64,000 nt of DNA. Source: Dolomedes plantarius. Lineage: Eukaryota > Arthropoda > Arachnida > Araneae > Dolomedidae. The notes under the pieces are model-generated. The model had not been told where the DNA came from and made no database searches. It saw nothing but the letters and a program-made list of their open reading frames with translations. The stretch covers positions 232,908,241 to 232,972,240 of the forward strand of contig OU015490.1 in NCBI GenBank assembly GCA_907164885.2, in the 5' to 3' direction. Positions within the stretch are counted from its first letter, which is position 1. Each line of letters starts with the position of its first letter. Below, in pieces: positions 480 to 57,165 of the stretch. The position numbers were made by a program, and so were the translations under genes.

Positions 480-3400
480 CTAGAAGTAAAGATGTAAAGA
501 ATTAAACACATTACATACACACACTTCATACACCATATTTTAACAAACAATTATAGTTAAATATATTTAATTTAAGACAGTCAAATACTTTTTCGATTTA
601 ATACTGTCATAATAAGTCTTATTTTCTCCCTAAAGCAGCATGAATAAATCCTGAGGATATTTGCCTATACATGTTGTGATTTTGTTGACTATGATTACAG
701 GAGTTCCAAAAGGTGAGCTAACATTGCTCCCCATGACAGGATGACATAGGAACATCCAAGCCTTAGCTGGGATTCTAACCCTTACTCATATGGTAAGGGC
801 TCCATACAATGCAAGCGGCTGAGATTAACTATGATAACTATGAGCCCAGCAATTTTCAATGCTCACAATCACTTTAATGTAAATACAGCATTACACCTGT
901 GCAAAATAGTTAATGACTAGGTGGCCCATGCAACCCTTTTGCATGCGATTAAAATATGATAAATTTTATAGCGAGGTTGGTGGTTTGTAGTAGGATGAAA
1001 GAACTGGTTCATTTGTAGCAATTGTTTATTTTTCAAATAACAATGGCACGTAAGGATAATACAAAACCAATTACAAAATGCCTTTGGCCACAATATTGGC
1101 GGTAACATAAGACAAAATATAGGAACATGAGATATGTTCATGTCAAAACACCTTTGTAGACAATATTAAAAGTTAAATATGACACAAACTCATGGAAAAT
1201 GTGATATTTACTTTACAAAACCTCTTTGTGCACGCTATTTGACTGTGCCATTTCAGCACATCCGGGGAAAGAACTTTAGGGCCAAAAGTCAATTTTTCAC
1301 TTTGATTTTTAAACAAACAATGTGCCATTCTGAATTAACAATTTGTCAGAAGTGGAGAATTTAATCTTTAAAATGGTACCTCATTTATCGATTTTGGTTA
1401 AGCATGAAGAGAAAGGGATTGTCACCAAAAATCCCCTTGTAGAAATAATCTATATGGTTTTACCATGCAAAAAGAATAATGCACACCTACACAGATATTG
1501 CCAGTAAAGAGACTAATGAAATCACAGAATGATAATAAAATCAAACGATTTTTAAATTTAAAAGTTCAGTGCGATTGATAATGGTAAAATAAAAAAGCTA
1601 GCATGCGCACCACCTAGGGGAAGGAAAAAAAAATTTTATAATGTTTATACTTTGATTTTTAAACAAACAATAAGATGTACAATTCTAAATTAACAATTCA
1701 CACAAAGCGGAGATCTTAATCTTTAAAATGGTACCTCATTTATCAATTTTGTTAAGTATGAAGGGAGAAAAATGGATATAAAAAAAAAAAACACCTTTTA
1801 GAAATAATATATATAAATAGATAGATAATTATCTACTTCAAGGAAAGCTGAATAAAATTAATATAAAACTGAACAGACAGAACTTTTGGTTACACAATTC
1901 TTGGCTGACTGGTTGCTTGAGAAGTACAGACAACTACTGCTACACAAGGTATCATTAGGTTAAACAATTCTTGGAGGAAGAATTTGCTTTTCCCCTAAAG
2001 AATTTTTTTTTTTTTTTTTTTTTTTTGGGGGGGGGAGGGGGAAACTGCTAAGTTATGAAAGATGGAAATGGATATCAAAATTTAAAATCAAATAATTTAA
2101 GGCCTAACATGAAATTAAAGAGCCTTTTAGCAATGCTGTAAGTTTATATATAATTCAAGTTGAAGGATAGCTTCTGTTTCTGTCAATTTAACCTGCAGAT
2201 CTGGATTAAAGTCTTTAGTCGAGGGAAGTTTTTGCATTTATAAAAGGTTGGTGACCTTTTATAAATGCCTAGTGATCTCCAATGGGTTTGAAAAACAAAA
2301 TGTTAATTTCCTCTCAGTAAGATATCACACTTGATGGGTTCTTCATGTTTAGTGAGAGAGTTTCAGTAAACTTCTGTTGTTTCCCAAATTTAGATTAACA
2401 ATGGAAAAATAATTATCTGCACTGTATCAGTCAGGGAATTGTTAGATATAAGTTTGTTTACAGAAGATTAGAACAAGTAATTATATTCTACAAATAGTTC
2501 ATTGTTTAAATGAGTCTAGTCAAAGTGAGGAATCAAGTAATAAACAGTGGAATGAACCTTTAATATCATCACTTTGGAGGACAACTGTTGTTTCCCAAAT
2601 TTAGATTTACAATGAAAAAATTATTGTTATCTCTAGTTTGTCAGTCAGGGAATTGTTAGATATAAGTTTGTTTACAGAAGATTAGAACAAGGAATTATAT
2701 TCTACAAATAGTTCATTGTTTAAATGAGTCTAGTTAAAGTGAGAAAACAAGTAATAAACAGTGCAATGAACCTTTAATATCATCACTCCAGAGGACAACT
2801 GTTGTTTCCCAAATTTAGATTTACAATGGAAAAATTATTGTTATCTCTACTGTGTCAGTCAAGGAATTGTTAGATATAAGTTTGTTTACAGAAGATTAGA
2901 ACAAGGAATTATATTCTACTAATAGTTCATTGTTTAAATGAGTCTAGTTAATGTGAGAAAATAAGTAATAAACAGCGCAATGAACCTTTAATATCATCAC
3001 TCCAGAGGACAACTTCAGCACGCTTCAGGTCAAACACGAATGCCCCTTGTGAGCTCCAAGTAAATATAAATGGAGAATCCTCAGTGCTGAAATAAATTCA
3101 CAAGATAAGGTAGAGAAAATTGGAAAATATAATTGAGTATGATGACATGAATTTAATTTAAAGATTAACACTACCAATTGAAAGTTAAATGATAATCCTC
3201 GGTGCTGAAATAAATTCAAAAGATAAGGCAAAGAAAATTGAAAAATATAATTGAGTACAATGACATGAATTTAATTGAAAGATTAACGCTACTAATTGAA
3301 AGTTAAATGATAATCCTGAAGAGAGCAAAGCTAAACTATAATGTTTCAGATGGAAAAGTACAGTTTAGTGACATGTACTCAGCAATCAGATTCCTTATAC

Positions 3401-6400: not shown

Positions 6401-9400
6401 TTGTTGTTGCCAGATTCGGGTGTGTCTTGTGTCATTGAATGGTTTTTTTTAACGTTCTTTAGTGTAGTAATATTATGTTGTGGCAACGGTTTTTGAATTT
6501 TTTGTTTATGTTTGAATTCAGCTTTTAAGTTTCAGCTAGGATGCAGCTTGGATACAATAATCTGGTTGTATATTTCAATTTATTTTTGTTCATTTATTTA
6601 TTATCTGTGCAGTATTTAGTGTAATTTAGAAATATCAGAGGATTTTAGTGTCTAAAATAGAGGCGATATAATGGAAACTGTTCATTTGAATTTGCGCTGT
6701 AATATATGTTTAATGAAGAAATATATATTTAACCAAGCTGTTTTTTATGTTTATTTAAATTAGTTATTATTAGTTAGACTGACTAGTTGTATTATACTGA
6801 CATTTTTAGCGGGGGACCGCCCACCTAACAAATTTCTCATTAATTTTAAGGTTTTAGTTTTTGTATTTATGCAGCCGTTTTTAGATACTTTTGCGTATGT
6901 TTTAAAGTAGCGGTTGAGCGTTTCTGTTTAGGTTTTGAATTTTAATACATCCGTTTTAGATATATTTGCGTATGTTTTAAATAAGTGGCTGAGTATTTCT
7001 GTTAAGGTTTTGAAGTTTAATACAGTTGTTTTTAGATATTTTTGCGTATGTTTTAAAGTAGCAGTTGAGCATTTCTGTTAAGGTTTTGAAGTTTAATACA
7101 GCCGCTTTTAGATATATTCGTGTATGTTTTAAAGTAGCTGTTGTGGATATGTGTCATGTTTTTGAAAGTTTATTATTGCCATTGGTAAGTTTGTTTTGAA
7201 TTTATTTTTATATTTGGGTTGTTGTTGATATTTTGTGTATATCCGTTATTTTAAGCGTAAAATGTCCGCGTAGACCTGTTTTAGCAACAAGAAATTTTTG
7301 GCATCTAGTTGGCGCCAAAAATTTTTTGTAGCCAACTTGTTGCCAAGGGAGGTGCGTCTGGCACATCTGTTCCTAATTTAGAACACAATGCAAAGAAATT
7401 TAATGTTTCTATTCAATTTCTGCGCTTCATATATTTAGTAAGTAATATAATATCTATTTCAAAACTTTTCCCGTAAAGATGATCCACAGTTTAAGACCAA
7501 TGATGAGTACAAATTATATAGTGTAGGAAGGAACTGACCATTCCTTCACGAAGTTGTTACTACTACATGTAAACCTTACCATTTTGTGGCTACTATGATA
7601 AACAAAATCTAACTATGCAAGTGATGATCACAGATAAATGACCATAAGAGACAACTTATATAGTGAAGGAAGGGAAAAGTTGCTACTAATACATGTAAAC
7701 CCCACCATTTTGTGGCTAATATGATAAACAAAATCTACCTATGCAAGGGATGATCACAGATAAATGACCATAAGAGCCACAGTGAACATTGAATATTTAT
7801 TTTTCAAATTTTTCATACCATCATACCTTAGGAAAAACCTATTTAACTAACAAAAAAAGTAATTATCTATAATTTTTTTTTTACTTAAGATAAGCAGAGA
7901 AGCAAACACATAAATAAAAAAATATTGTGGCACATTGAAGAACTGCAATCATAAAATTAATGTACACATATCATAAAATGACTAGATGTAATAGCTAATT
8001 TAAAAATATATAAACATATTTACTTGTTTGTATCACAGAGGTAACACCTAGTTAAAGTAGAGACAAGTAAATGATCTTGAGCAAAATCAAGCTGAACAAC
8101 TCTGGAATCTAATTTCATCAGTGTAGTTGTTGGAACTTGAAAGATGTTTCGTGTCTATGAGAAAATAAAAATAAAATATAGCAACTGAAAGTTTGAGTAA
8201 TATTCCTAAATGGCATGAAATATTATTTAAATTTTGATTGGTATAAATATTAAACACATAATACCTTCAGTTTAGATAATTTGAACTTTGAATAAATATC
8301 CTCTACAAAAATAGAAGCTAATGTAGTCAAACTACCAACAGGATCAGGATAAACATCCAGTTTTATTTCAAAATTGACATCTCTAGTAGAAAAAATAGGG
8401 GGAAAGCACTGTGCCAACAAATAAAAACTTGCACTTAATGCGGAGTTAAAATTTCAGCATATGTGACTATTTCATAAACATAAAATATTTATTAATTGCA
8501 TTTTTTTTTCAAAAGTTAATGTTCAAGTTATTTCAGATCATGCAAAACAATTTTAAACAGGAATTTATAAGATGGAGAAACAGTATGAAGTACAAGGGTG
8601 TTTCGGAAAGTAAAAATACAATGCAGCATACTCATTCAAAAAATTTTTAATTGATAAAACGTCCATTACAAATTACTTACTGGTTCATGCCTTATATTTT
8701 GACATGGTTGCCACCATTGTCCAAGTATTTGTTCACCAAGTCTGAGTACAAGTTTTTGTATCCCACAGTCATAGAAGTTTGCCGAAACCACATTTCAACA
8801 GTTTTAATCTCATCATCGTCATGGAATTTTTGCCCTGCAAGATGTTTCTTCAAATAAAGGAATAAGTAGAAGTCGCTAGGTCAAGGTCCGGGCTGTATGG
8901 CAGATGTCTAAAACATCCCACTTCAAACTTTTGAGTAGTGCTTTGGTTAAAAGCGCTGTGTGAGGACAAGCATTGTCATGAAGCAAGCAAACTCCGCTTG
9001 TCAGCATGCCCCCATGTTTGTTTTGAATTGCCCATCTAAGACGTCTCAAAGTCCCACAATATGCATCAGCATTAATTGTGGTGCCAGGAGGCATGAAGTC
9101 CATCAGAAGAATGCCTTGTCTATCCCAGAAAACGAAAGCCATGATTTTTTTTTCTGAAATTGAAGTTGAAATGGGGTTTTGAAAACAGGTGGCAAACTTC
9201 TATGACTGTGGGATACAAAAGCTTGTACCAAGACTCAACAAATGCTTGGACAATGGTGGCAACTGGCTTGAATCATTAAGTAATTTATAATGAAAAACAT
9301 TACGTTTTATCAATAAAAAAAATGTTTAATGAGTATGCGACATTGTATCATTACTTTCCAAAATAACCTTGCATAAGCATTTAAAAATTTATTCACATCT

Positions 9401-16123: not shown

Positions 16124-16870
16124 CACTGAGAAGCTACTTTATTATGAGCACCTGACAGTATTATGCAAATGAGCTACTGCATCACAGTGTTGCCGTTAGA
16201 GGGTGAGATAGCTATAAATAGAGAATGCAGGACAAGTAAACTATTAATTGCACTGCGTTGCTTGAGGAGATATGGGCAAAAAACATGATTTAACTGAGTT
16301 TGAACGCGGGGTGATTGTAGGTGCTCAAAGCGTCGAAACCAGTATCAGCAAAACGGCTGCAATTGTGAAGTGTTTGAGAGCAGCAGTTATTAATCTTTAC
16401 AGAGAGTGGCCTACCAAGCAGAAAACCGGGTCTCAACGTCAGGCTTGTGGTCGTCACAGATTACTGAATGCTCGATCTGAAAGGAGACTTGCCAGAGCTG
16501 TCCAGTCCAACAGAAGAGCAACAGTACGTCAAATAGCGGGGAATCTTAATCAAGGAGCAACTGCGAACGTCTCTGGGAGAACTGTTCATCACACCTTACA
16601 CCATATAGGCTATGGAGGCCGACGACCTTTTCGAAAGGCTCTACTTTCTATCTTGAACAAGAGCAGACGTCTCCAGTTAGCAAAGGAGCACAAGGATTGG
16701 ACAGTTGATGACTGGAAAATGGTCATGTGGTCCGATGAATGGCGTTTTCAATTACACCATGCAGATGGCAGGGTACGAATATTGAGAAAACAGCACGAAG
16801 AAAATGGATCCCAACTGCATTGCCACAACACTTCAAGCTGGTGGAGGCAATATTATGGTTTGGGGGATGT
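16124..16870 (+). pseudogene. Tc1-like transposase remnant
   Basis: A TA is followed by a Tc1-type end (CACTGAGAAGCTACTTTATT). The reading frame opens at ATG 16272. An N-terminal helix-turn-helix region is followed by WSDEWRF, the first catalytic Asp of the DDE triad. The frame then slips near 16800: LQAGGGNIMVWGMF is in another frame. The second and third catalytic residues and the 3' end are missing. Confidence 0.85.
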
Positions 16871-17632
16871 TTTCTTGAAACAAAGTACGAATGCATGTAT
16901 TGTTGCAATGTATTTTAAATGTCTATTTAACACATTGGTAAGCCTTGTCTCGTACTTTTTCATAGCAGCGCTCTTTAATTTAATAATAGTCTTCTTTCAG
17001 AGCACCTTGAAAATCTTTCTTCAAGTCCAGTTTCTCTTCACTCACTAACAGCAGCATTAATTCTTCTTCTATCGCCATTGTGGCAAGTCCTAAGAGGTGC
17101 ATTACTCAGAGGTGAACCAACATCACTCCCTTGAGCCATCTCCATGAGCCATGAGCCATAAGACACGAGTGTTTCCTTAAAACACTAAAGAGGGACGCAC
17201 TTCTCGCCTCTCCTTTGAGAGTTACCTATCGTTTTGTTTCTTCTGTTACCTCTCTAGTGTCTGTTGCAAAATGCACATATTGCAAATAAAAGCTGTGAGG
17301 GAACCCCCATGTTGATTCATTGTGGGTAGCTGTGATGGAATATGTCACGACTACACCTTGATTCAAATACAACGCGAATTTTTCTAATGTTACTCACATA
17401 CTTTCTGACACCCCCCTCTTCCCCCTCCGTACTGCCTTCCAACCACACACACACACATATATATTCACACTCTTTATAATTATATAATTACTACCTAAAA
17501 AATTATAAATTAATGGCAATTAATGTACAACTATTTTCTCTTATTTCGGACGATGCTTTTCTAAGGTCAGAAATTTCGTTTTGCAGTTCACCTATTTTGT
17601 AAGTATTATTTATTTTGTAGTATTATTTATTT
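16870..17632. other. Unassigned segment with a 32-codon minus-strand mini-ORF
   Basis: No family was recognised. On the minus strand at 17078-16980 an ATG opens MAIEEELMLLLVSEE and continues for 32 codons. Short acidic starts like this occur as first exons of some Harbinger-type genes, but this is weak. The segment separates two copies of a 53-bp Tc1 piece. Confidence 0.25.
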
Positions 17633-27187: not shown

Positions 27188-27700
27188 TACAAGCCCAGCA
27201 GCGTACGCAGAAATTTTCAAAGGGGGGGGGGGTTATAGTCCATTCAAATTAGGTTTTCCTTTCGCATTAAATGAAGGGGTTGAGATATTTCAGGAATGTG
27301 TAGGGGTTGATCCCCTGAACAACGTCTAATAAAGTCCCCTCAATTTCAGGCGCCGAGGGGTGGGGGTCCAAAGATCACTTTTTTTCAGTTTTCGGCATTT
27401 ATCTCGAAAACGGTGCGTCGCACAGAAAATTGTCACATCCAAAAATTAAAGCTTATAAAATTCCCTTCCAAATGGTATATCCATGTTTGTACCCAAGTGT
27501 TACCGTTTTCGAGATATGAGCCGTTGAATATGAAAATTTTTCAAAAAAAGTGGTAGCGGTTCAGGTATCTCGTCAAACTTCATCTTCTAACTCTTTCCCC
27601 TTCCATTTCTCAGAAAACTCGTGATAGAGAAAGTTGTAGAGCGAAATATTTTCTTCAAAAATGTATAGAGTTATACTAATTTATCTTCACCAGGTAAATA

Positions 27701-29109
27701 CACTGCTGGCCACTGTAAATGCAACACCCTGAAGGAAACATGCAAATAACATGAAATTTACAACATGCATTAGCGGAGGTGAGATATGCTAATGATTAGA
27801 ATTTCAGCGCAGACGCACATCACGCGCGCCTGTGGCGCCACTTCAAAGCGCTATTTAAGGCTTGGAGATTTCGACGATTTCAAGTTCAGCAATTGTGTTT
27901 TTCTTGTGATTTTTTCAAAAAAACGATCAATTATGCCTCGTCGAAAACAGCGATCATCTTTTGATCAAGTATACGAGTTCGACAGAGGAAAGATAGTGGC
28001 CTACCGAGATTGTGGATTATCTTTCAGGGAAATCGGTAGTCGTGTTGGACGAAACCAAACAACTGTAATGCGGATATGTGATCGTTGGATGCAGGAGGGT
28101 ACGACGGACCGGTGTGTTCGATCGCATCCACCTCAGCGCACCACTTCACGTGATGACTGGCAAATTGTGCGCATGGCAGTGACGGATCGCTCAGTCACAT
28201 CATGAACCATAGTACAGCACATGCAGTCTGTAACGCATCATCCAGTGTCTGCGCGTACCATTCGACGCCGTTTACAGCAGAGTGGTCTGTCCGCAAGACG
28301 TCCATTGCTTTGTCTACCCTTGACGCAGAACCACAGACGTCTCCGCCGCCAATGGTGCGATGACAGAAGGATGTGGACGGCAGAATGGAATGAAATTGTC
28401 TTTACTGACGAGTCACGCTTCTGTCTGCAACACCACGATGGTCGCATTCGAGTCTGGAGACACCGTGAAGAGAGGATGCTGAACAGCTGCGTTATGCACC
28501 GCCACACTGGTCCTGCACCGGGTATTATGGTATGGGGCGGTATTGGACATCTCTCTCGCACACCTCTAGTACGCATTGCCGGTACTTTAAACAGCCAGCG
28601 CTACATCTCCGAGGTGTTGGAGCCAGTTGTCCTTCCTTACCTTCAGGGCTTGCCCACAGCCATATTTCAACAGGATAATGCGCGACCACACGTGGCACGC
28701 ATTGTCCAACGGTTCTTCGTCAATCGCCAGATTGAATTGCTTCCCTGGCCGCCTCGCTCTCCGGATCTTTCGCCGATAGAAAACATGTGGTCCATGGTTG
28801 CTCTACGATTGACCCAGATTCCATCCCCAGCTGCCACAGCAGATCAACTTTGGCAACGTGTGGAAGCTGCTTGGTCTGCTGTACCCCAAGAACTCATCCA
28901 AAGTCTCTTTGAATCAATGCCGAGGCGTGTGGCAGTGGTGATCTCCAACAATGGCGGCTACTCTGGCTACTGATTTTGGCAGGAACCACACTTCACAGAA
29001 GTCTATAAATTTAATCATTTGATACTTGGTCAACATGTTATCTACAAAATAAATTTTGTTGTGATATCTCTTGTCTTTCTTGGTGTTGCAATTTGGGTGG
29101 CCAGCAGTG
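27701..29109 (+). mobile_element. Tc1-like element copy A, 1,409 bp
   Basis: TIRs CACTGCTGGCCACTGTAAAT and, inverted, CACTGCTGGCCACCCAAATT, flanked by TA at 27699-27700 and 29110-29111. Complete from end to end with one transposase gene. Confidence 0.95.
27933..28973 (+). pseudogene. Tc1-like transposase, one premature stop (copy A)
   Basis: 346 codons from ATG 27933 to the stop at 28971. The N-terminal paired-like helix-turn-helix (FREIGSRVGRNQTTVMRICD) is followed by a second one (VSARTIRRRLQQSG). The catalytic residues sit in FTDESRF, FQQDNARPH and SPDLSPIENMW (DD34E). The only defect is TGA at 28203-28205, where copy B has CGA (Arg), a C-to-T change at a CpG. Otherwise full length, so this insertion is young. 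Confidence 0.95.
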
Positions 29110-29365
29110 TAGTTAGAGCGTTTTGAAGTTTGGGGATACTTTTCAACATTTTGCTAGTCAATGCTCAACAAATGCTCGTCACTCAAGTTTCGTTTCCATG
29201 GTCTGTAACTCTCTTAATCACTTTGTATGCTGTTTAATTAGATACGTATAGTATTCATAACCCATATAAATAATAAATTATATATACCTGTACGTATAAT
29301 GTACATCTCATAATATACAGAAGAACACTTGTAGTACAAAGGAGGAAGTGAGAAAACAAACCAAA

Positions 29366-31234
29366 ATGTATAAAAGTGTCACTTTATCTCAGATCATTTT
29401 GGAAAATTTAGATATCACACCATATGAAAAAGAAGAAGTAGTTCAGTTACTTCAGACCTCAGTAGAAATTACTCCACAACACATTTCCCCAAATACCTCC
29501 CTTGCCAGCATTCAGTGGAAATTTAGCAACGAATTGTCACGTCTCAAAGGTAATGGGCCAACAGCAGCTTTGTGGGCCCAGTATTTTGAAATGGTGGTGT
29601 TGATGAAAAAATTCATTGCAGCACAGCGCAACTGGGAAGATAATATGACATGCGCCCAACTGATGATACCTTACTTCCATTCCAGCGGGCATTTTCATTA
29701 TGCAAAGTGTACTCACCTATGTGTACAACACATGCTGGGACTAACAACTCGCCACCTTCAACTTAAACAGGATTTTATAGATCGTGGATACTTCACTGTT
29801 AACAGAACTGGAACACCAATGGCTGGTGTGTGGTCTGACATGGCAATTGAGGTGACACTCATGTGTGACATGAAGAGTGAAGGAGAATTAACACGTGGGA
29901 GAGGCTTTAGTGATTTGGTGTTGGCGAAATGGGTTGGGGGAGCACGCACAGCTACAGCAATATGTAGTTCACTTGAGATGTTTTGTGGCGTCCATACTGC
30001 AAGAGGAGAACAACATGTTGAGTTTCAAGAATCACGTATAACCAAAGATGATCTATACAGAAGGAAGCTTGCTCAATGGTTGGCTGATCACCCGCCTTTT
30101 GTTGAACGTAATTGTTTGATGTCACTTTCAACGGGAGTAATTGGAACAAGTAACGTCAACTGCTACCAGGCCTTGGAAATTGGAACCCGCACAATGAGCA
30201 CTTTTGTTGGAATGAATTTCCCAGAAGTGAAACAATCCAAGAAGGACTCAGTCGTTCCTTTAGATGCGATGAGCAATATGATTAAAGTTAATGATGAGGT
30301 AGTGATGGTAGAGCCTCTGATGATATTTCAAAGAACTCTGATCACCAAGAAGAGAGAAGGGGATGTAGAGGAGTTGCTAACGTACGAGATAGCCCCATAC
30401 CCTATGTCTCTATTCGCCGAGGGGATAATGAGAAAAATCAAAAAGTCAGCACTGTATGATGTTTTCCCAAAATGTAATCAACTGATCAATGTGAAGAACA
30501 GTTTCACGGTAATCTATGGCAGCTTCCTGCTTTATAGAGTAAAGTGGAACACCAATACCACCTTCGCCTCCATCTGCGATCAATATGTATCGTACATAAT
30601 CAACCATTACGGCAGCAGTTCAGCTGTGGTTTTTGATGGTTATGAAGACACGAACTCTACGGAAACAGACGAACAACATCGGAGAGCACCAAGTAAAACA
30701 TCAATGGATATTGACTTCAATAAGAACATGGTGGCTACTGTTCATCAAGAAAACTTCCTTTCCAATGAAAGGAACAAAACCAAGCTCATTACTATGTTAG
30801 TTCAGGGCTTGGGTGCAAGAGGTATACAGTCTACTATAGCCAAACGAGATGCTGACTGCAGTATTGTCAGAGGTGGGTGGCAAAACACCTCTCATTCCAC
30901 TGTGGTGATAGTAGATAGGTAAGACCTGCTCGACTTTCTTGTGGCACTCACCCCACGAGACATGAATGTGTTTTTCATGAAGGCCGGACGGGGTAACACA
31001 GAAGACAGGCTCTACTCTTCACAACATCTTCAGGTCTTATCATTCAGCCAGTACATTCTCTTCATCCATAGTTTCTCAGAATGTGACACTACGTCAGCGA
31101 TTTATGGTAAAAGCAAAGCAGCAATAGTACAATATTTCCAGCGGTATGCCAATGAAACAACAAACATCGCCAAAGTGTTTTATGACTCCAAATCTTCACC
31201 AGGAGACATTGCTGGAGCTGAGGAATGTTCCTGA
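29366..31234 (+). pseudogene. Uncharacterised transposon protein with PIN/XPG-nuclease-like half, one internal stop
   Basis: From ATG 29366 the frame runs 518 codons to TAA 30920-30922, then continues in the same frame to 31234. The N-terminal region (QWKFSNELSR, GPTAALWAQYFEMVVLMK) matches a repetitive arthropod/metazoan family that I know only as uncharacterised. The second half has acidic signatures in order: VVFDGYED (residue about 420), NKTKLITMLV, DADCSIV (about 496) and HSFSECDTTSAIYG (about 573). This order is like PIN/FEN1/XPG nucleases, where acidic residues bind metal. The C-terminal Cys-rich end usual in relatives is missing. Nuclease function is inference; Academ transposons are a known case with an XPG-like domain. 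Confidence 0.65.
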
Positions 31235-31377
31235 TCATGTTCCAGGCCCCTCCAAATGAGCATGATCTCAATCACCAGAGGTATCTTTCATTTTTCTTTG
31301 CTCGTACTGACCCCATTAAGTAAATTTAATAATTTATATAATTCATTAATATTTAATAATACTATCTGGCCGTTATA

Positions 31378-31600
31378 CACTATCTGGCCAAAAGTATCCG
31401 GACACCCCTCTAAAGAAGTGGATACAGCAGGTGACGTAATTTGATGCGTAACCGAAAGCTATAAAAGTATTGGTAGTGGTTTGTTGATCGTGGCATTATA
31501 GTGGGATGCCACCTTTGTGGGAAATCAGTTCGTGAAAATTCGGACATTCTACAGAAGCTAAAATGATAGTGAAGACTTTAACTTGTTTGAAACTTTTTCC
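31378..31600 (+). mobile_element. Tc1-like 5' end fragment
   Basis: TA then CACTATCTGGCCAAAAGTAT and CCGGACACC, a common Tc1 end, followed by leader sequence and an ATGCCACCTTTG-like start that soon hits stops. The 3' part is absent; the right border is uncertain. Confidence 0.65.
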
Positions 31601-31731
31601 GAAATATCAGATTGACGGCTTTTAATGTATAGGAAAGCAGTTGATGAAATAAATTGTATATAATATATTTAATGTAAGTAACTGTTGTTTGAACCTACTT
31701 TTGATAGCCATTTTTTGATTATATGAACAAC

Positions 31732-32666
31732 TTTTATACATTTTGGTTTGATTTCTTACTTTCTCCTTTGTACTACAAGTGTTCTTCTGTATATTATGAG
31801 ATATACAATATACGTACAAGTATACATAATTTATTATTTATATGGGTTATAAATACTATACGTATCTAATTAAACAGCATGCAAAATCATTAAGAGAGTT
31901 ACAGACCATGGAAACGAAACTTGAGTGACGAGCATTTTACAAGCAAAATGTTGAAAAATACCCCTAAACTTCAAAACGCTCTAACTATTTACCTGGTAAC
32001 TATTTACCTGGTAAGATAAATTGGCATAACTCTATACATTTTTGAAGGACATTTTTCGCTCTACAACTTTCTCTATCATGAGTTTTCTGAGAAATGGAAG
32101 GGGAAAGAGTTAGAAGAGGAAGTTTGACGAGATACCTGAACCGCTACTACTTTTTTTGAAAAATTTTCATATTCGACGGCTCATATCTCGAAAACGGTAA
32201 CACTCAGTTAAAACACTTTGTCCTATGGTCCTATGGTCCTATGGACGGTAACACTTGGGTACAAACATGGATATACCATTTGGAAGGGAATTTTATAAGC
32301 TTTAATTTTTGGATTTTACAATTTTCTGTGCGACTCACCGTTTTCGAGGTAAACACCAAAAACTGAAAAAAGTGACCTTTTTGACCCCCACCCCACCCCC
32401 CACGGCTCCTGAAATCGAGGGGACTTTATTAGGCGTTGTTCAGGGGACCAACACTTACACATTCCTGAAAAAATCTCAGCCCCTTCATTTAATGCATGAT
32501 TCGCCGCCATTTTGAGCTAATTTGACAGGACTTATTACCATGAAAGAGTAGTTTGGAGCAATCAGTGCAAAGCGTAAACCTAATTAAATAATATATGTAA
32601 TCAGAACCAATGGGGGGGGGGGGTTATAACCCCCATCAACCCCCCTCCCCCTTGCGTACGCCACTG
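31732..32666 (-). repeat. Right inverted arm
   Basis: About 935 bp in inverse orientation to the left arm. It keeps the unoccupied target site (CAGGTAAATAGTTAGAGC when inverted) at the point where the left arm holds the Tc1 copy. Confidence 0.85.
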
Positions 32667-32674
32667 TACAAGCC

Positions 32675-38241: not shown

Positions 38242-41161
38242 TAAAGTGGTTCGAAAAAAAACTTTTTTTTAAATTTCAGATCGCAATAGTGCACAAAAGT
38301 TGCCATTGGTATAGACGTGAAAAAAATCCCCAATTATTATTTTTTTATTAATTTGTCTTCCGGTCGCGCAATGCCATCGAAGTTAGCAAAAAATTGCGAA
38401 AAACCTTAATTTTTCATAATTTTTTTAAGCTCTCCAGATGGTTTTAATTGCGGTCCTATATCATGAATTAACTACTAAAAGTATGTAAAATCAATATATA
38501 TGCACTCATTATACATTTGTTTCATATCTTCCGGTCGCGCAACATAGTACAAAATGAGTAAAATTAGTAGTTTTTGCAAAATTTCAAAGTTTGACTGTTT
38601 AGTACATTTTAGACATACAACTTTTAGAGATGCTATAGTTTAATTCTATTACAATAATATATTTAAAATCCAAGCATATAAGATGAACTTTGATATTCAA
38701 GTGGAACTCGGTCGCACAGCTTCGTCAAAAACAGCAGAGTAGCCTACCTGGACAGAGAGGCGAGGCGTAGGTGACGAATGCAAGTGATGCGCTCGCAGCC
38801 GGTAGGAGACATTATCGTTGTCTGACAATTTTGTTGTTTGACAATGTTGTTCTTAAGTCCGTATTTTTCTGTCTAGTTTGGCGTTCAGTGTTTGTAATTG
38901 AATAGTTCTACACGACAGTTATTGATACAATGGATGTGCCAAAGAAAGTTGGTATAGGTACAATAACTAGAAAAGATTTTGAGTGCCCCATTTTTGGTCA
39001 CCCACGAGACTTGTTACACAACAAGCTTCCTACTCATGAAGATGTCCTTCGCTGCTGCTTTCAAGAGAGATTCAACCTAGCTGTGACAATAAACAACAAG
39101 AGTGTATCTTTTTCAAGAGTAGCCTCAACAGTGGCAAAGAAAATTATCGGTTTATATGACAAAGCCTCGATCCCAACTGTTACGGAGTACAGAGTCATCC
39201 AGCTAATTTGTTCTTACTACGAATCATACAGTAAACTCAGAAAGTCGTTTCATCGTGACAAAGATAAACCAGCATTCAAACTTAAACTTGACAATTTCAA
39301 GGAGAAAGGATGCTCTCTTTTTAATATCGCGGCGTGTAAATGTGTAATTGTTGCTAATGACTGTTCATGTAAGAAATCTCCAGATACATGTTGTGTATGT
39401 CCTGTAAGTGTGCACTGCATTTGTGAAAGAGGGAAAAAATTCCACCTTTGGAATTAAGGTTTATGTACTTGCAAAGAAAATACGGCATTGGAAAAATAGG
39501 GTCTCTGGATGTTAAGTAAACCAAACGAATAAATAATAGAATTATACGGAAAAACTATGAAAGAAAACGACCTACATCTTCCGAAATATGCAAAAATGTT
39601 GAAGTACAGATGAATAATTCAGATTCAGACGTTTCCCATATCAGTGATGAAGACTTTCTACCACAGCCTTCAACTTCTTCAGCCAAGCCGCAGTGGCAGA
39701 TGAGGATTTCATTCAACATTACTGCTGTAACTAGTGACCGATATGGCGTATCGGATCGCGCTACGGCTGCTATTGCTTCAAGTGTACTGCAAGATGTTGG
39801 GTTGATTAATGAATCAGATACTTCTTATGTTGTAGACAAGAGTAGAGTCCGAAGAGAAAAAACTTGTGTGAGAGCTAGTTTGCAAAGTGATATAAGTTTA
39901 GAAATTTATAGTCTTTACTTTGATGGACGAAAAGACAATCCATTGTCAATTGAAAAAACTGGCAGAAAACACTTTCGCAGAACTTATAAGGAGGAGCATT
40001 ACTCTTTAATTCAGGAGCCAGGCTCCACTTACATAGGACACACTTGTCCTTCTTCAAGCTCAGCAACCGATATAGCCAAAAGCATCACGTCTTATTTATC
40101 AGAAAATGGCTTTTTACTTGACAAATTGGAAGTTGTTGGATGTGACGGTACTGTTATTAATACGGGCTTAAGAAATGGTGTAATTCGACAAATAGAGATA
40201 CATGTGGAAAAACCTCTACAATGGAGTATTTGTCTTCTCCATTACAACGAACTGCTATTCCGCCACCTTTTCCAACACTTAGATGGAAATACAAGAGGCC
40301 CAATAGGATATTCCGGACCGATTGGAAAGGCCCTACCTGATTGTGAAAGACTACCAGTTATTGATTTTAATCGTATTGATTGTGAGATTCCAAAAGTTGA
40401 CAAGCGTATTCTTAGCAAGGACCAATTGTACTTGCTTGAGATATCAGAAGTCATCAAAACAGGACATTGTTCAGAAGACTTTGTAGTACGTGATCCTGGC
40501 CCAATGTCACATTCAAGATGGCTTACTACTGCAAACCGAGTTTTGCGCCTCTACATCAGTGTGTCAAGCGCTTCTGAAAATCTGAGAGAGATTGTCACAT
40601 TCATTCTCAAATGTTATATGCCTATGTGGTTTGCCATAAAAATAAACCACAAATTCACAATTGGGCCTGGACATGTTTGCAAAACTATTGAATCTACAAG
40701 GTACTTACCAGAAGAGCTGCTTCAAGTTGTTGATCCCGTTTTACAACGGAATACTTACTTTGCCCATCCCAAAAATTTACTTTTGGCTATGGTAACTGAT
40801 AATGAAACCATATCCGAGAGCTGGGCTTTAGGCGTATTATGAAGGCAAAGCAAGCAATATTTGAAAGTGACTCTATCAGAAAAAAATGTATAATAAGTGC
40901 ATATATATTGATTTTACATACTTTTAGTAGTTAATTCATGGTATAGGAACGCAATTAAAACCATCTGGCGTGCTTAAAAAAATTATGAAAAATTAAGGTT
41001 TTTCAAAAATTTTTGCTAACTTCGATGTCATTGCGCGACCAGAAGAAAAATTAATAAAAAAATAATAATTAGTGCTTTTTTCACGTCTATACAAATGGCA
41101 ACTTTTGTGCACTATAGCGATCTGAAATAAAAAAAAAAGTTTTTTTCGAACCACCCTATTA
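38242..41161 (+). mobile_element. Unclassified DNA transposon, 2,920 bp, TIRs about 265 bp, TACAG duplication
   Basis: Left tip TAAAGTGGTTCGAAAAAA, right tip inverted TAATAGGGTGGTTCGAAAAA. The arms (38242-38504 and about 40899-41161) share GTGCACAAAAGTTGCCATTG-type landmarks. The 5-bp duplication TACAG is at 38237-38241 and 41162-41166. One gene is carried on the plus strand. I cannot place it in a named superfamily. Confidence 0.85.
38930..40945 (+). pseudogene. Putative transposase of the 2.9-kb element, two frameshifts and one stop
   Basis: The first part opens at ATG 38930 (DVPKKVGIGTITRKDFECP) with a Cys-rich stretch (CKCVIVANDCSCKKSPDTCC) and ends early at 39455 because the frame slips near 39436 at an A-run. 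A stop follows near 39514. The main part, 39610-40842, has EVVGCDGTVINTGLRNGVIR, LHYNELLFRHLFQHLDG, DPGPMSHSRWLTTANRVLRL and RYLPEELLQVVDPVLQRNTY. A second slip near 40815 moves the end (FRRIMKAKQA) to another frame, with a stop inside the right TIR. The family is widespread and uncharacterised; CDGT could hold a catalytic Asp. Confidence 0.75.
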
Positions 41162-41793
41162 TACAGACAGTAGTGGAAGACCGTGAGGAACGCGAATACA
41201 GAGAAAAGGTTAAAATAGAGATAGAGGAAAAGAAACTGGAGGTACAGAGAATGAAAAAAGAGCTTCAGTTAGAGTATAGGAGGATGGGGTTGCCGATCTC
41301 TGATATAGTTAAAACGGAGCCCTCTACAAATGTGAAAGACATAGGGAGTGAAAGTGGTGTTTTGAAACAGCATGTTATCGAGGAATCAAAGAGTGATTTG
41401 CGCTCCTTCAATACGTGTGAGCACAAGAAAGATGTGAATGACACAGAAAGTGAGATAGGTGCTTCGGGACGGCATGTTAGCGTGACGGAGAAGTCAAAGC
41501 CGTCAAAAGACAACTTATCTGTTTGTAGCAACGGGCTAGATAAGTCCAATATTGAAACTAACATTATGTACGATAAATGTACGACATCAGTCCGAGTGTG
41601 TGGTCAAACCGCTGCAGAAACTAGTGGAGAATCACAACACTTAGAGACTCAATGTGATAAAATTCGTTCCGAAATAGAGGAGAAAACTGCTGTAATCGTA
41701 ATACTCGAGAGAGTGGTGAAATCAAAGGCTGTAGTGCATTATGCAACTAAAGAGTGCCCTACAAAGTTTTTCGTGGACCCTACAAATTTTTAG

Positions 41794-43273: not shown

Positions 43274-44688
43274 TGCTGGCCACCCAAATTGCAACACCAA
43301 GAAAAATAAGAGATATCACAACAAAATTTATTTTGTAGATAATATGTTGACCAAGTATCAAATGATTAAATTTATAGACTTCTGTGAAGTGTGGTTCCTG
43401 CCAAAATCAGTAGCCAGAGTAGCCGCCATTGTTGGAGATCACCGCTGCCACACGCCTCGGCATTGATTCAAAGAGACTTTGGATGAGTTCTTGGGGTACA
43501 GCAGACCAAGCAGCTTCCACACGTTGCCAAAGTTGATCTGCTGTGGCAGCTGGGGATGGAATCTGGGTCAATCGTCGAGCAACCATGGACCACATGTTTT
43601 CTATCGGCGAAAGATCCGGAGAGCGACCAGGGAAGCAATTCAATCTGGCGATTGACGAAGAACCGTTGGACAATGCGTGCCACGTGTGGTCCCGCATTAT
43701 CCTGTTGAAACCGCATTATCCTGTTGGCTGTGGGCAAGCCCTGAAGGTAAGGAAGGACAACTGGCTCCAACACCTCGGAGATGTAGCGCTGGCTGTTTAA
43801 AGTACCGGCAATGCGTACTAGAGGTGTGCGAGAGTGATATCCAATACCGCCCCATACCATAATTCCCGGTGCAGGACCAGTGTGGCGGTGCATAACGCAG
43901 CTGTTCAGCATCCTCTCTTCACGGTGTCTCCAGACTCGAATGCGACCATCGTGGTGTTGCAGACAGAAGCGTGACTCGTCAGTAAAGACAATTTCATTCC
44001 ATTCTGCCGTCCACATCCTTCTGTCATCGCACCATTGGCGGCGGAGACGTCTGTGGTTCTGCGTCAAGGGTAGACAAAGCAATGGACGTCTTGTGGACAG
44101 ACCACTCTGCTGTAAACGGCGTCGAATGGTACGCGCAGACACTGGATGATGCGTTACAGACTGCATGTGCTGTGCTATGGTTCGTGATGTGACTGAGCGA
44201 TCCGTCACTGCCATGCGCACAATTTGCCTGTCATCACGTGAAGTGGTGCGCTGAGGTGGATGCGATCGAACACGCCGGTCCGTCGTACCCTCCTGCATCC
44301 AACGATCACATATCCGCATTACAGTTGTTTGGTTTCGTCCAACACGACTAACGATTTCCCTGAAAGATAATCCACAATCTCGGTAGGCCACTATCCTTCC
44401 TCTGTCGAACTCGGATACTTGATCAAAAGATGATCGCTGTTTTCGACGAGGCATAATTGATCGGTTTTTTTTTGAAAAACCACAAGAAAAACACAATTGC
44501 CGAACTTGAAATCGTCGAAATCTCCAAGCCTTAAATAGCGCTTTGAAGTGGCGCCACAGGCGCGCGTGATGTGCGTCTGCGCTGAAATTCTAATCATTTG
44601 CATATCTCACCTCCGCTAATGCATGTTGTAAATTTCATGTTTTTTGCATGTTTCCTTCAGGGTGTTGCATTTACAGTGGCCAGCAGTG
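43271..44688 (-). mobile_element. Tc1-like element copy B, 1,418 bp
   Basis: Same TIRs as copy A (CACTGCTGGCCAC...). TA at 44689-44690 on the right; on the left the target merges with the (TA)n/CA tract. Confidence 0.93.
43407..44454 (-). pseudogene. Tc1-like transposase, copy B, frameshifted
   Basis: Start at 44454 (MPRRKQRSS). It lacks the premature stop of copy A but has two other lesions. A local duplication next to the second catalytic Asp adds four codons (TANRIMRFQQDNAGPH for TAIFQQDNARPH). A 5-base loss in the segment before SPDLSPIENMW shifts the frame near 43620. The rest continues in the new frame to the stop at 43407. Confidence 0.93.
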
Positions 44689-49989: not shown

Positions 49990-50650
49990 TTTGATGGGAA
50001 CATGTGAAAAAGCCTTCACTTCCCCAAACCATTTATATTATTTCAAATCCCCATCGAAATTGAGAGGATTTTGAAAAGTCTGTGAGGATGTAAGTCCTTC
50101 TATGGATGTGGGAAATCGAAATATAGTAGTCTGACACTATCAGCTGCTTATCTATTATTAAACAAATTGTTTTAAAGTTTTATTTTAATAGGAACTCTTA
50201 AAAGAACACATGTGCAAAAGCCTTCACTTTCCCAAACCATTTATAGGAGTAAACATTTGAAATCCCCATCGAAATTTCTTGAGAGGATTTTGAAAAGTGT
50301 GTGAGGATGTAAGGACCTTCTATGGATGTGAAAAATCGAAAAATAATAGTCTGACACTATCAGCTGCTTGTCTATTATAAAACAAATTGTTTTAATGTTT
50401 TATATTAATAGGAATTTTTAATAGAACACATGTGCAAAATCCTTCACTTCCACCATCCATTTATAGCAGTAAAAATTTGAAATCCCCATCGAAATTTCTT
50501 GAGATGATTTTGAAAAGTCTGTGAGGGTGTAAGGACTTTCTGTGGATGTGAGAAATCGAAATATAATAGACTGACAATATCAGCTTCTATTAAACAAATC
50601 AGCTATTATTAAACAAATTGTTTTAAAGTTTTATTTTAATAGGAAGTTAT
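49990..50650 (+). repeat. Tandem array, about 208-220-bp unit, 3 copies
   Basis: CCTTCACTTYCCCAAACC landmarks at 50013, 50221 and 50441. Each unit continues AAATCCCCATCGAAATT, then GTCTGACACTATCAGCTGC, then AACAAATTGTTTTAA. Non-coding. Confidence 0.88.
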
Positions 50651-54520: not shown

Positions 54521-56800
54521 ACATTGTCCATTTTATTGTTTTGCCACCTGCTGTAAAAGCATCAAATACCTAGTTCCTCCTCGTTCGAGTATGTTTGATA
54601 CATGGATTTTCTTCGATATTTTTCTCTTGAGTACATGCATTGCTGTCTTTATATCACCGCACATCCATTCAAGCACACACGTCATGAAGGTATGAATATA
54701 AAATTGTCTGTGCACATGGTTGTAAATAGTTTTAGACCCTCGTAAATTTCAGAGGGAAAGGGAGGTGTTTGGCCATTTGTCTAAGTCGCCAAGGGGTGAG
54801 AAAAATTAAAACTTATGAAAGTGGTGACGTCTTCTAAAGCTTTTTGCCAATAGATAAACCACTTCCTCAAACTTTTCTTTGTTGGCGAGAGGTTTTGAAA
54901 TGCACTTCGCCCCAAGTCATACACCCTCGCGAATCCCCAGAATATCTATTTCTGAGGTATTTTAGTCCAGGTTTCCGTTCGCAAGTTGCCACAGACTGTT
55001 ATGGAGTATTCCCCCCGCGGAAAGACGCAAAGCTCCATATTCTTAAATTCCCGTTACTTGTATTTTGACAGTCTTCCTTGCTCGGGCAGACTTCCAGACG
55101 ACTACAAATACCAACTGCAGCGCTTTTGCGACGATATTTTGGCTTTCACTATCTGGTCGAGACTGGATGTTTTTCGAAACGGAATGATTTGCAAAGTTCC
55201 GGTTCCGTGGCTTTTAAAGAAGCTCTTGCAGTGAAGCCAACAATCAAAATGACTTGTTAGTCAAGCCTTTTTGGATCTTGAATGAATGGCAGGAAGTAAA
55301 TATTTAGGAGTTCACAAAAATACCTTAGATAACCGACGGAGCTATCACGTCTAATGACGTAAAGTAAATAATCGGTGACGTTGCCAAGACGTCCACTGAC
55401 GTTAAAATAATAGCGTTGATGCCCTTGAAGAGGTTAACAACGAGACATGTTTCAAAGTTTGTGTCTGAGGTAAAAGCTGTGTGATGAAAGCAAACAAAAA
55501 TAGATAGGTGCCAACATCGAGAGGAATTTTTCTATATTTTTAAACTCAGAACGTCTTTTAATATTTGAAGGTCTAGAAGGGAAAGTGCATGTTATCTCTT
55601 TTTAGAAATTAAGATTGTAATTTAAAATTTTAATATCACTTTCAGATGCCTTTTTAACATCTATTTGTATATCTAAATTTGCATCTAGTTCATGGAACTT
55701 GAATATACTCTCCAAGCAGAATATAACGAAGGGAATTATTTATATCGAGCAAGTATGGAATAGTTTTTAGGTTGTAATAAATTTACTTGAATAAACTAGT
55801 GATGTCTAACTTAGGAAATCAAGCATTGTTGCCTACAGATATTGATTTATGTTGAAACAATTATTTACTCGTATTGTTCAAAGAAAATTATAAACTAAGT
55901 AGGAGTTTGAATAGTGATAAAAGGCACAGAATAGACAATGTGTTACACAAGTGATATAACCATCCAAATAAAGCACTTAAATAGCCCTTAACGAAGCAGA
56001 AAATCTCTACAGTACATTCATAATGCAGGTAATGAAGATCGATGATGCAGATAGGGAAGACAAAAGCTACGCAATAAGGATCGACAGATCCTTACTACAA
56101 TATTGCTTTTTGTTAATTATTTTACATGGCTAATAGGGTAAATTTCCACTGTTTAATGCCTTATATCTATAAATCAATAAAAGTTAATATTGGGAAATAA
56201 CTGAATAGGGAGATATCTAATTGTTCTCGTTTCCAGAAATAATATAAACCAAAAATGTAGAATGACCGGCAAAATAAACCAAAAGGTTTCAACAAAACAA
56301 GGAATCCTGTTGCAACAAAACCTCATGCCCAAAGATAGTCAAACTAACAGTTTTGACTCCTTTACTTTTTATTAAGAATGCACTAAACTGTTAATGTAAA
56401 AAGAAAATCACGGCTTGCCACAATAGAAATGTCTATATATGTATATTGCTAAATTGTAAGCCCGTTATTTAAAATAGAAAAAACCTCCGCACACAATATT
56501 GCTAAATTTGCAAGCATATAACGCACTTTAGAAGAATAAAAATAATAGATTCATGAAATTTCGAGAGGTTTATATGTATTTATTGTAATACATCTCTATT
56601 CATCATTACTTTTAACCGAAAGATGGCAGGACTATTTCAAATTTTATTGCTGCTATCTTTGGGCTGAAGGAATCCTTTTGTTGACTATATAAGATTAGTT
56701 TGAAAAATGTACTGAAGGAATTACTCATATAATTTATTTGCAGTCTTCTGAGAATTTATTTATAAAGCTTGTTTATAGTTTAGTATAGAAAAACTACTTT
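54521..56800. other. Long gene-poor stretch
   Basis: No recognisable protein, repeat or element. A few open frames of 60-80 codons between 54844 and 55260 on the plus strand lack known motifs. Confidence 0.45.
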
Positions 56801-56804
56801 ATCT

Positions 56805-57165
56805 ACCACCAATACTGCAAAAGAAAGAAAAGTTAGATTGTTTAATTTTTTCTGTGCTTTCTCCTCATGTCGTTAGTTCAACTTTATCTCTCCCCAATAC
56901 TGCAAAAGAAAGAAAAGTTAAATTGTTTAATTTCATCTGTGACTTCTCCTTATGTCGTTAGATCAACTTTATCTCCCCCCCCCCCCGAATACTGCAAAAG
57001 AAAGAAAAGTTAGATTGTTTAATTTTATCTGTGCTTTCTCCTTATGTCGTTAGATCAACTTTATCCCCCCCCCTCCCAATACTGCAAAAGAAAGAAAAGT
57101 TAGATTCTTTAATTTTATCTGTGCGTTCTCCTTATGTCGCTAGTTCACACAAACATTATAAAACT
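56805..57165 (+). repeat. Tandem array, 85-92-bp unit, 4 copies
   Basis: AATACTGCAAAAGAAAGAAA landmarks at 56811, 56896, 56988 and 57078. Units vary in the length of a CCCC run that precedes the landmark. Non-coding. Confidence 0.88.

Follow-up and report, generated by a model that had tools for sequence, protein, structure and literature searches.

The window analysed here, a stretch of 64,000 nucleotides from the genome of the spider Dolomedes plantarius, contains a mobile element that has the appearance of a new transposon but consists of two elements of known kinds, one inside the other. A defective member of the Academ kindred lies within a tiny and unrelated mobile element, a miniature inverted-repeat transposable element (MITE) with hAT-like ends (Table 1). 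An earlier note on this DNA had suggested a single transposon class that joined a nuclease gene with an 8-bp target duplication; the gene and the duplication belong to different nested elements. The nesting itself is established by three forms of the element and their common junction, and we consider it highly probable that an Academ-type element sits in a hAT-like MITE and that the whole has been moved by the MITE's enzyme. A nested element can thus mimic a new transposon class, its gene and its target duplication coming from different parents and being joined at first look. The locus also offers a clear example from nature in which ~160 bp of mobile element carry a ~4-kb passenger, in at least 447 copies with an exact junction, and the presence of empty, bare, and joined forms in one genome makes the size tolerance of MITE movement testable.

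Composite, empty, and bare forms in one genome

The element in the window is flanked, as had been noticed from its sequence, by exact duplications of TACAAGCC, and its outer ends are of the type CAG(T/C)(A/G)GCGTACGCA. The genome (2.78 Gb, 390 contigs) was searched with the gene fragment described below; 83 matches were scored among 6054 candidates, from which 30 loci were made, the window being one of them. The left outer tip was present at 20 of the 29 other loci, and right ends were fetched for those 20. Both outer tips were found in 18 of these 20 composites, which lie in differing flanks and have 8-bp repeats that are exact in 16 cases and contain one mismatch in two; repeats of 3, 4, 7, 9, or 10 bp, when tested, were exact in no copy. 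Because other copies end at identical bases with differing 8-bp repeats, the outer boundaries are real. As the earlier note held, the element has moved and has duplicated 8 bp of its target.

Inside these boundaries there is a second pair of ends. The inner left tip, TAGTCCATTCAAATTAGG, and its mirror are both enclosed by the CAG...CTG ends of the outer element. The long inverted arms that had been attributed to a single element are real, and six main arm-to-arm blocks (I1-I5 and I7) of 27-208 nt show 89-95% complementarity; the arms reach only the inner tips, not the outer ones. Each inner arm measures ~0.75 kb, in a composite of ~4 kb. All 20 composites have the TAGTCC tip within their outer left end, preceded by TTA in every one except L017, and all 18 with both outer tips have its mirror, with some bases changed, within the outer right end. 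In the right arm, GTCCTATG occurs three times at 32214-32244, a stretch that is missing from the left arm.

Insertion of an Academ-type element into a small element at TTA predicts that copies of the junction without the insert also occur. The predicted empty junction, GGGGTTANYATGAAAGAGT, in which the inner element and one TTA are removed, gave 213 exact matches in the genome, and a reversed-pattern control gave none. Twenty of the matches listed were fetched, and 16 proved to be complete, with a length of 152-177 bp and a tip at either end (allowing at most three changed bases in the left tip and two in the right), their 8-bp repeats being exact in 11 and carrying one mismatch in five. The filled right junction, GACTATTANYATGAAAGAGT, gave 447 exact matches (control 0). 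Both junction counts are lower bounds set by exact matching, and the latter excludes TGA and ATA variants. Inner TAGTCC tips that follow C, G, or T numbered 84 (control 0); eight of the nine fetched start at the tip within unrelated flanks, whereas the ninth (L123) is a composite in which a base has changed. Four of these eight bare elements yielded a far end, and three of the four have 3-bp repeats (TAC, TGT, and AAC). All three predicted forms, the composite, the empty outer element, and the bare inner element, are therefore present in one genome.

The empty and the filled outer elements differ at one site of the MITE, which is G in 27 of the 28 scored composites (two of 30 were unscored), whereas among 18 scored empties (two of 20 unscored) it is T in 14 and G in two. 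Most of the empties thus look like a separate lineage and not like excision products.

Table 1. Positions of the composite element and its parts in the window
Feature	Positions	Strand	Remarks
Left 8-bp target duplication of the outer element, TACAAGCC	27188..27195	+	Direct sequence match; 8-bp repeats at other copies
Outer hAT-like MITE, left piece	27196..27235	+	40 bp, CAGCAGCGTACGCAG...GGTTA
TTA, left 3-bp duplication from the inner insertion	27233..27235	+	
Inner Academ-type (AcademX-like) non-autonomous element	27236..32534	+	Tips TAGTCC...GGACT(T)A; with later Tc1-like insertion
Inner element, left inverted arm	27236..29377	+	Split by the Tc1-like insertion
Tc1-like element	27699..29111	+	TA duplications; two broken transposase frames (HTH_Tnp_Tc3_2, DDE_3)
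Academ/XPG-type transposase gene, middle portion	29366..31234	+	518 open codons, TAA at 30920-30922, frame recognisable to 31231
Remnant of a second Tc1-like element	31376..31640	+	Tip CACTATCTGGCCAAAAG; right limit approximate
Inner element, right inverted arm	31730..32534	-	
Outer hAT-like MITE, right piece	32535..32666	+	132 bp, TTACCATGAAAGAG...TTGCGTACGCCACTG; begins with the right TTA duplication
Right 8-bp target duplication of the outer element, TACAAGCC	32667..32674	+	Direct sequence match

The truncated gene and its full-length relatives

The two pieces of the gene fragment gave no Pfam match, and a PDB search with the single fragment from the window gave one match at chance level. 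A protein search with the fragment found 70 related proteins, the best-scoring named relative being a protein of the stick insect Dryococelus australis; when a longer relative served as query, 151 proteins were found, and many of the 120 matches listed have ~1450-1550 residues. The alignment of 89 family sequences contains invariant and nearly invariant acidic positions. The profile of these relatives matches human EXO1 (exonuclease 1, of the FEN1/XPG family) at a modest E=0.0011, in an alignment that takes in VFDG, the DAD motif against EAD, ED.D, and GCD; we take the aligned acidic positions to be the FEN1 metal sites. The EXO1 match and the order of the acidic motifs support a kinship of the gene family with the FEN1/XPG nucleases, and on this point the XPG-like character first suggested for the gene is supported. 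No relatives of the family were confirmed in prokaryote or viral contigs. Academ is counted among the DDE/D superfamilies in PMC10294476; what bears on that question here are the invariant acidic residues of the family alignment, weak matches to DUF6589, and a window copy that lacks the N-terminal part. The open-licence literature yielded nothing on DUF6589.

Academ-type elements of full length are also present in this genome, with frames that stay open over 1490 codons in L063 and over 1641 codons in both L060 and L061. Over 6066 bp the last two share 99.3% identity; they lie in different flanks and have the tips TAGTCC...GGACTA and, judged by eye, repeats of CTA and GAT, respectively. With their long open frame and 3-bp duplications they were possibly active recently. 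By eye also, L063 has a 4-bp repeat (GTCT) and the tips TAGTCC...GGACTA, and L059 has a frame of 1319, TAGCCC tips, and the repeat TAT. A further copy, L068, sits within an AT run and is uninformative for duplication length. According to PMC10045372, AcademX elements have target duplications of 3-4 bp and AcademH elements of 9-10 bp; the 3-4 bp repeats of these full-length or nearly full-length relatives fit AcademX, unlike AcademH, and agree with the length that the earlier note had given for Academ. The family resembles AcademX further in its XPG-type nuclease region within a very large single-frame protein, in its inverted ends, and in its short duplications, which are of 3 bp in three of the four measurable bare copies. 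On the strength of these features we call the inner element Academ-type and AcademX-like. The window copy departs from AcademX in that it has neither the N-terminal part nor the CXC end, stops at codon 519, and travels inside another element.

The window does not contain the one 620-codon gene that had been described: its frame runs through 518 open codons to a TAA. Homology begins near 29378, at the arm's end. Against L060, a relative of 1534 residues, the fragment aligns from residue 673 with 39% identity (40% against L059), which means that about the first 45% of the gene is missing. The TAA is common to 29 of 30 aligned sequences, the window and 29 of the best-scoring copies, a sample biased towards conserved ones, whose cores diverge by 4% on average. 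Of the seven acidic positions the window copy has lost two, with Y at the equivalent of D34 and R at that of D179 (FEN1 numbering); the former residue is retained in 23 of the 30 sequences and the latter in none. The ratio of nonsynonymous to synonymous divergence (dN/dS), computed for the 435 pairs of these 30 sequences, is ~0.73 upstream of the shared stop and ~0.80 downstream, values that indicate no strong constraint. Maintenance of the gene by selection within the composite was considered and, on these values, rejected. Since it is truncated, shares its stop, and is weakly constrained, the inner gene would be cargo and not a working transposase, and it presumably does not power the composite's movement. 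The outer element exists gene-free, and for it the gene is a passenger, the very status that the earlier note had named as fatal to its proposal. The shared stop falls inside a splice-donor-like string, AGGTAAGA (AG/GTAAGA, 30917-30924); this is probably chance, because recognisable coding similarity persists past the stop.

A probable single insertion and the proposed mover

The simplest account of these forms would be a single insertion followed by movement of the whole composite by the MITE transposase. The three forms and their common junction show that a MITE of ~160 bp was entered at TTA by a non-autonomous AcademX-like element, whose arms measure ~0.75 kb and whose XPG-type gene is truncated; we infer that this founding insertion happened once. 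The outer MITE's transposase, acting on the outer tips, would then have carried the ~4-kb composite to many new sites; the new 8-bp duplication that each landing would yield is observed at the copies. The window copy later received a Tc1-like insertion. Nuclease action on foldback DNA is not needed for such a history.

A very different proposal, and one that we consider extremely improbable, is that the composite is one transposon of a new class, in which the XPG-like gene is the transposase and cleavage of the foldback arms yields the 8-bp duplications. It draws on the XPG relationship of the gene family and on the recurrence of the fragment in many copies with common tips and 8-bp repeats. 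The outer element, however, occurs without gene or arms, the inner element occurs without the outer tips and with 3-bp repeats in three of four measurable copies, and the full-length genes carry other tips and 3-4 bp repeats; the gene here, moreover, has lost both its ends and shares its stop in 29 of 30 sequences. The empty, bare, and full-length forms contradict an XPG-driven 8-bp duplication, which we reject. It is just as far-fetched to suppose that the outer mover is an unusual protein of the Academ lineage that makes 8-bp staggered cuts, so that the two elements would be paired by common machinery and not by chance nesting.

That the identical junction recurs hundreds of times might also be explained if the inner element had entered existing MITE copies repeatedly and independently at a preferred TTA site. 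This we regard as very improbable, for orientation and site are constant in the 18 two-tipped copies, the base typical of composites is present in 27 of 28 of them as against two of 18 empties, and the cores of the 30 best-scoring sequences differ by only the few per cent given above.

More weight attaches to the question of which enzyme moves the whole. CAG...CTG-type ends and 8-bp duplications are features of hAT elements, and both are found here: the terminal inverted repeats in composites and empties alike, and the 8-bp duplications, which are perfect in 16 of the 18 composites and in 11 of the 16 empties, with one mismatch in the others. On these grounds we label the outer element hAT, and its transposase would probably be of the hAT type. 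It resembles hAT-type MITEs in its ends, its duplications, its length of ~160 bp, and its hundreds of copies; it differs in that one lineage bears a ~4-kb passenger and that no matching hAT transposase was found at 12 right ends. Duplications of 8 bp are also made by the P, Merlin, MuDR, and Zisupton superfamilies, and an outer element from one of these, itself moving the composite, is a serious if unlikely alternative. In its favour, none of the 12 hAT right ends carried the tip and 19 of the 8-bp duplications show no clear target consensus; against it stand the end type and repeat length, which fit hAT, and the abundance of hAT dimer domains in the genome (150 scored of 14954 candidates).

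Several observations weigh against a single insertion into a hAT-like MITE. The transposase of the outer element was not found, the outer tip being present at none of the 12 hAT right ends taken from the 150 scored matches. The right triplet is TTA in only seven of 18 composites, with TGA in nine, ATA in one, and an ambiguous triplet in one (L013). Nine of the 29 copies with the gene had no left tip, for which reason they were excluded ahead of the count of duplications, and the right tip was missing in four of the 20 fetched empty junctions. The far end of the bare inner element was not found at its expected position in four of eight copies, and another bare copy, L118, gives a 3-bp repeat only if loss of the last tip base is assumed. 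As regards the triplet, 10 further composites (10 of the 40 best right-end matches) have TTA in nine and ATA in one, and the composites with TGA are read as a derived subfamily because the empty outer elements carry TTA.

The spread of foreign sequence by a MITE has a precedent in MER6, a Mariner-derived MITE which, according to PMC6887750, bears a V-SINE (short interspersed nuclear element) domain. In both cases a foreign mobile sequence inside a MITE has spread along with it; in MER6 it is a SINE domain in a Mariner-derived element, whereas here the passenger is an Academ-type transposon and its carrier is an element that makes 8-bp duplications. Searches of the open-licence literature on nested or composite MITE movement and on Academ brought up no report of the present composite.

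Tc1-like insertions and other features

The left arm is interrupted by the first Tc1-like element. This insertion is missing in all copies whose left arm aligns across the insertion point. The tip CACTATCTGGCCAAAAG of the second Tc1-like element was found in eight of nine composites inspected, and L010 holds a transposase N-terminus with the peptide MSKSKELSNFDRGIIVGCHLCGKSVRE. The region of this remnant contains additional stretches whose length differs between subfamilies.

A search for the outer tip outside its MITE context gave five matches, and the reversed-pattern control gave one. The matches L113, L114, and L116 were judged by eye to be MITE-derived. L117 is a related element of ~170 bp that starts with CAGTGGCGTACGCA, has seven of eight bases repeated, and differs in its interior; in L115 the match runs, by eye, into retroelement-like frames, and the far tip was not found.

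Elsewhere in the window there are two further Tc1-like transposase frames (HTH_Tnp_Tc3_2) at 16272-17048 and 43468-44496, and three adjacent frames of 175, 410, and 206 codons at 38930-41793 that have no Pfam match at E 0.001. Tandem arrays occupy 2374-3014 (unit of 214 bp), 6872-7172 (76 bp), 50000-50645 (220 bp), and 56796-57147 (85-92 bp).

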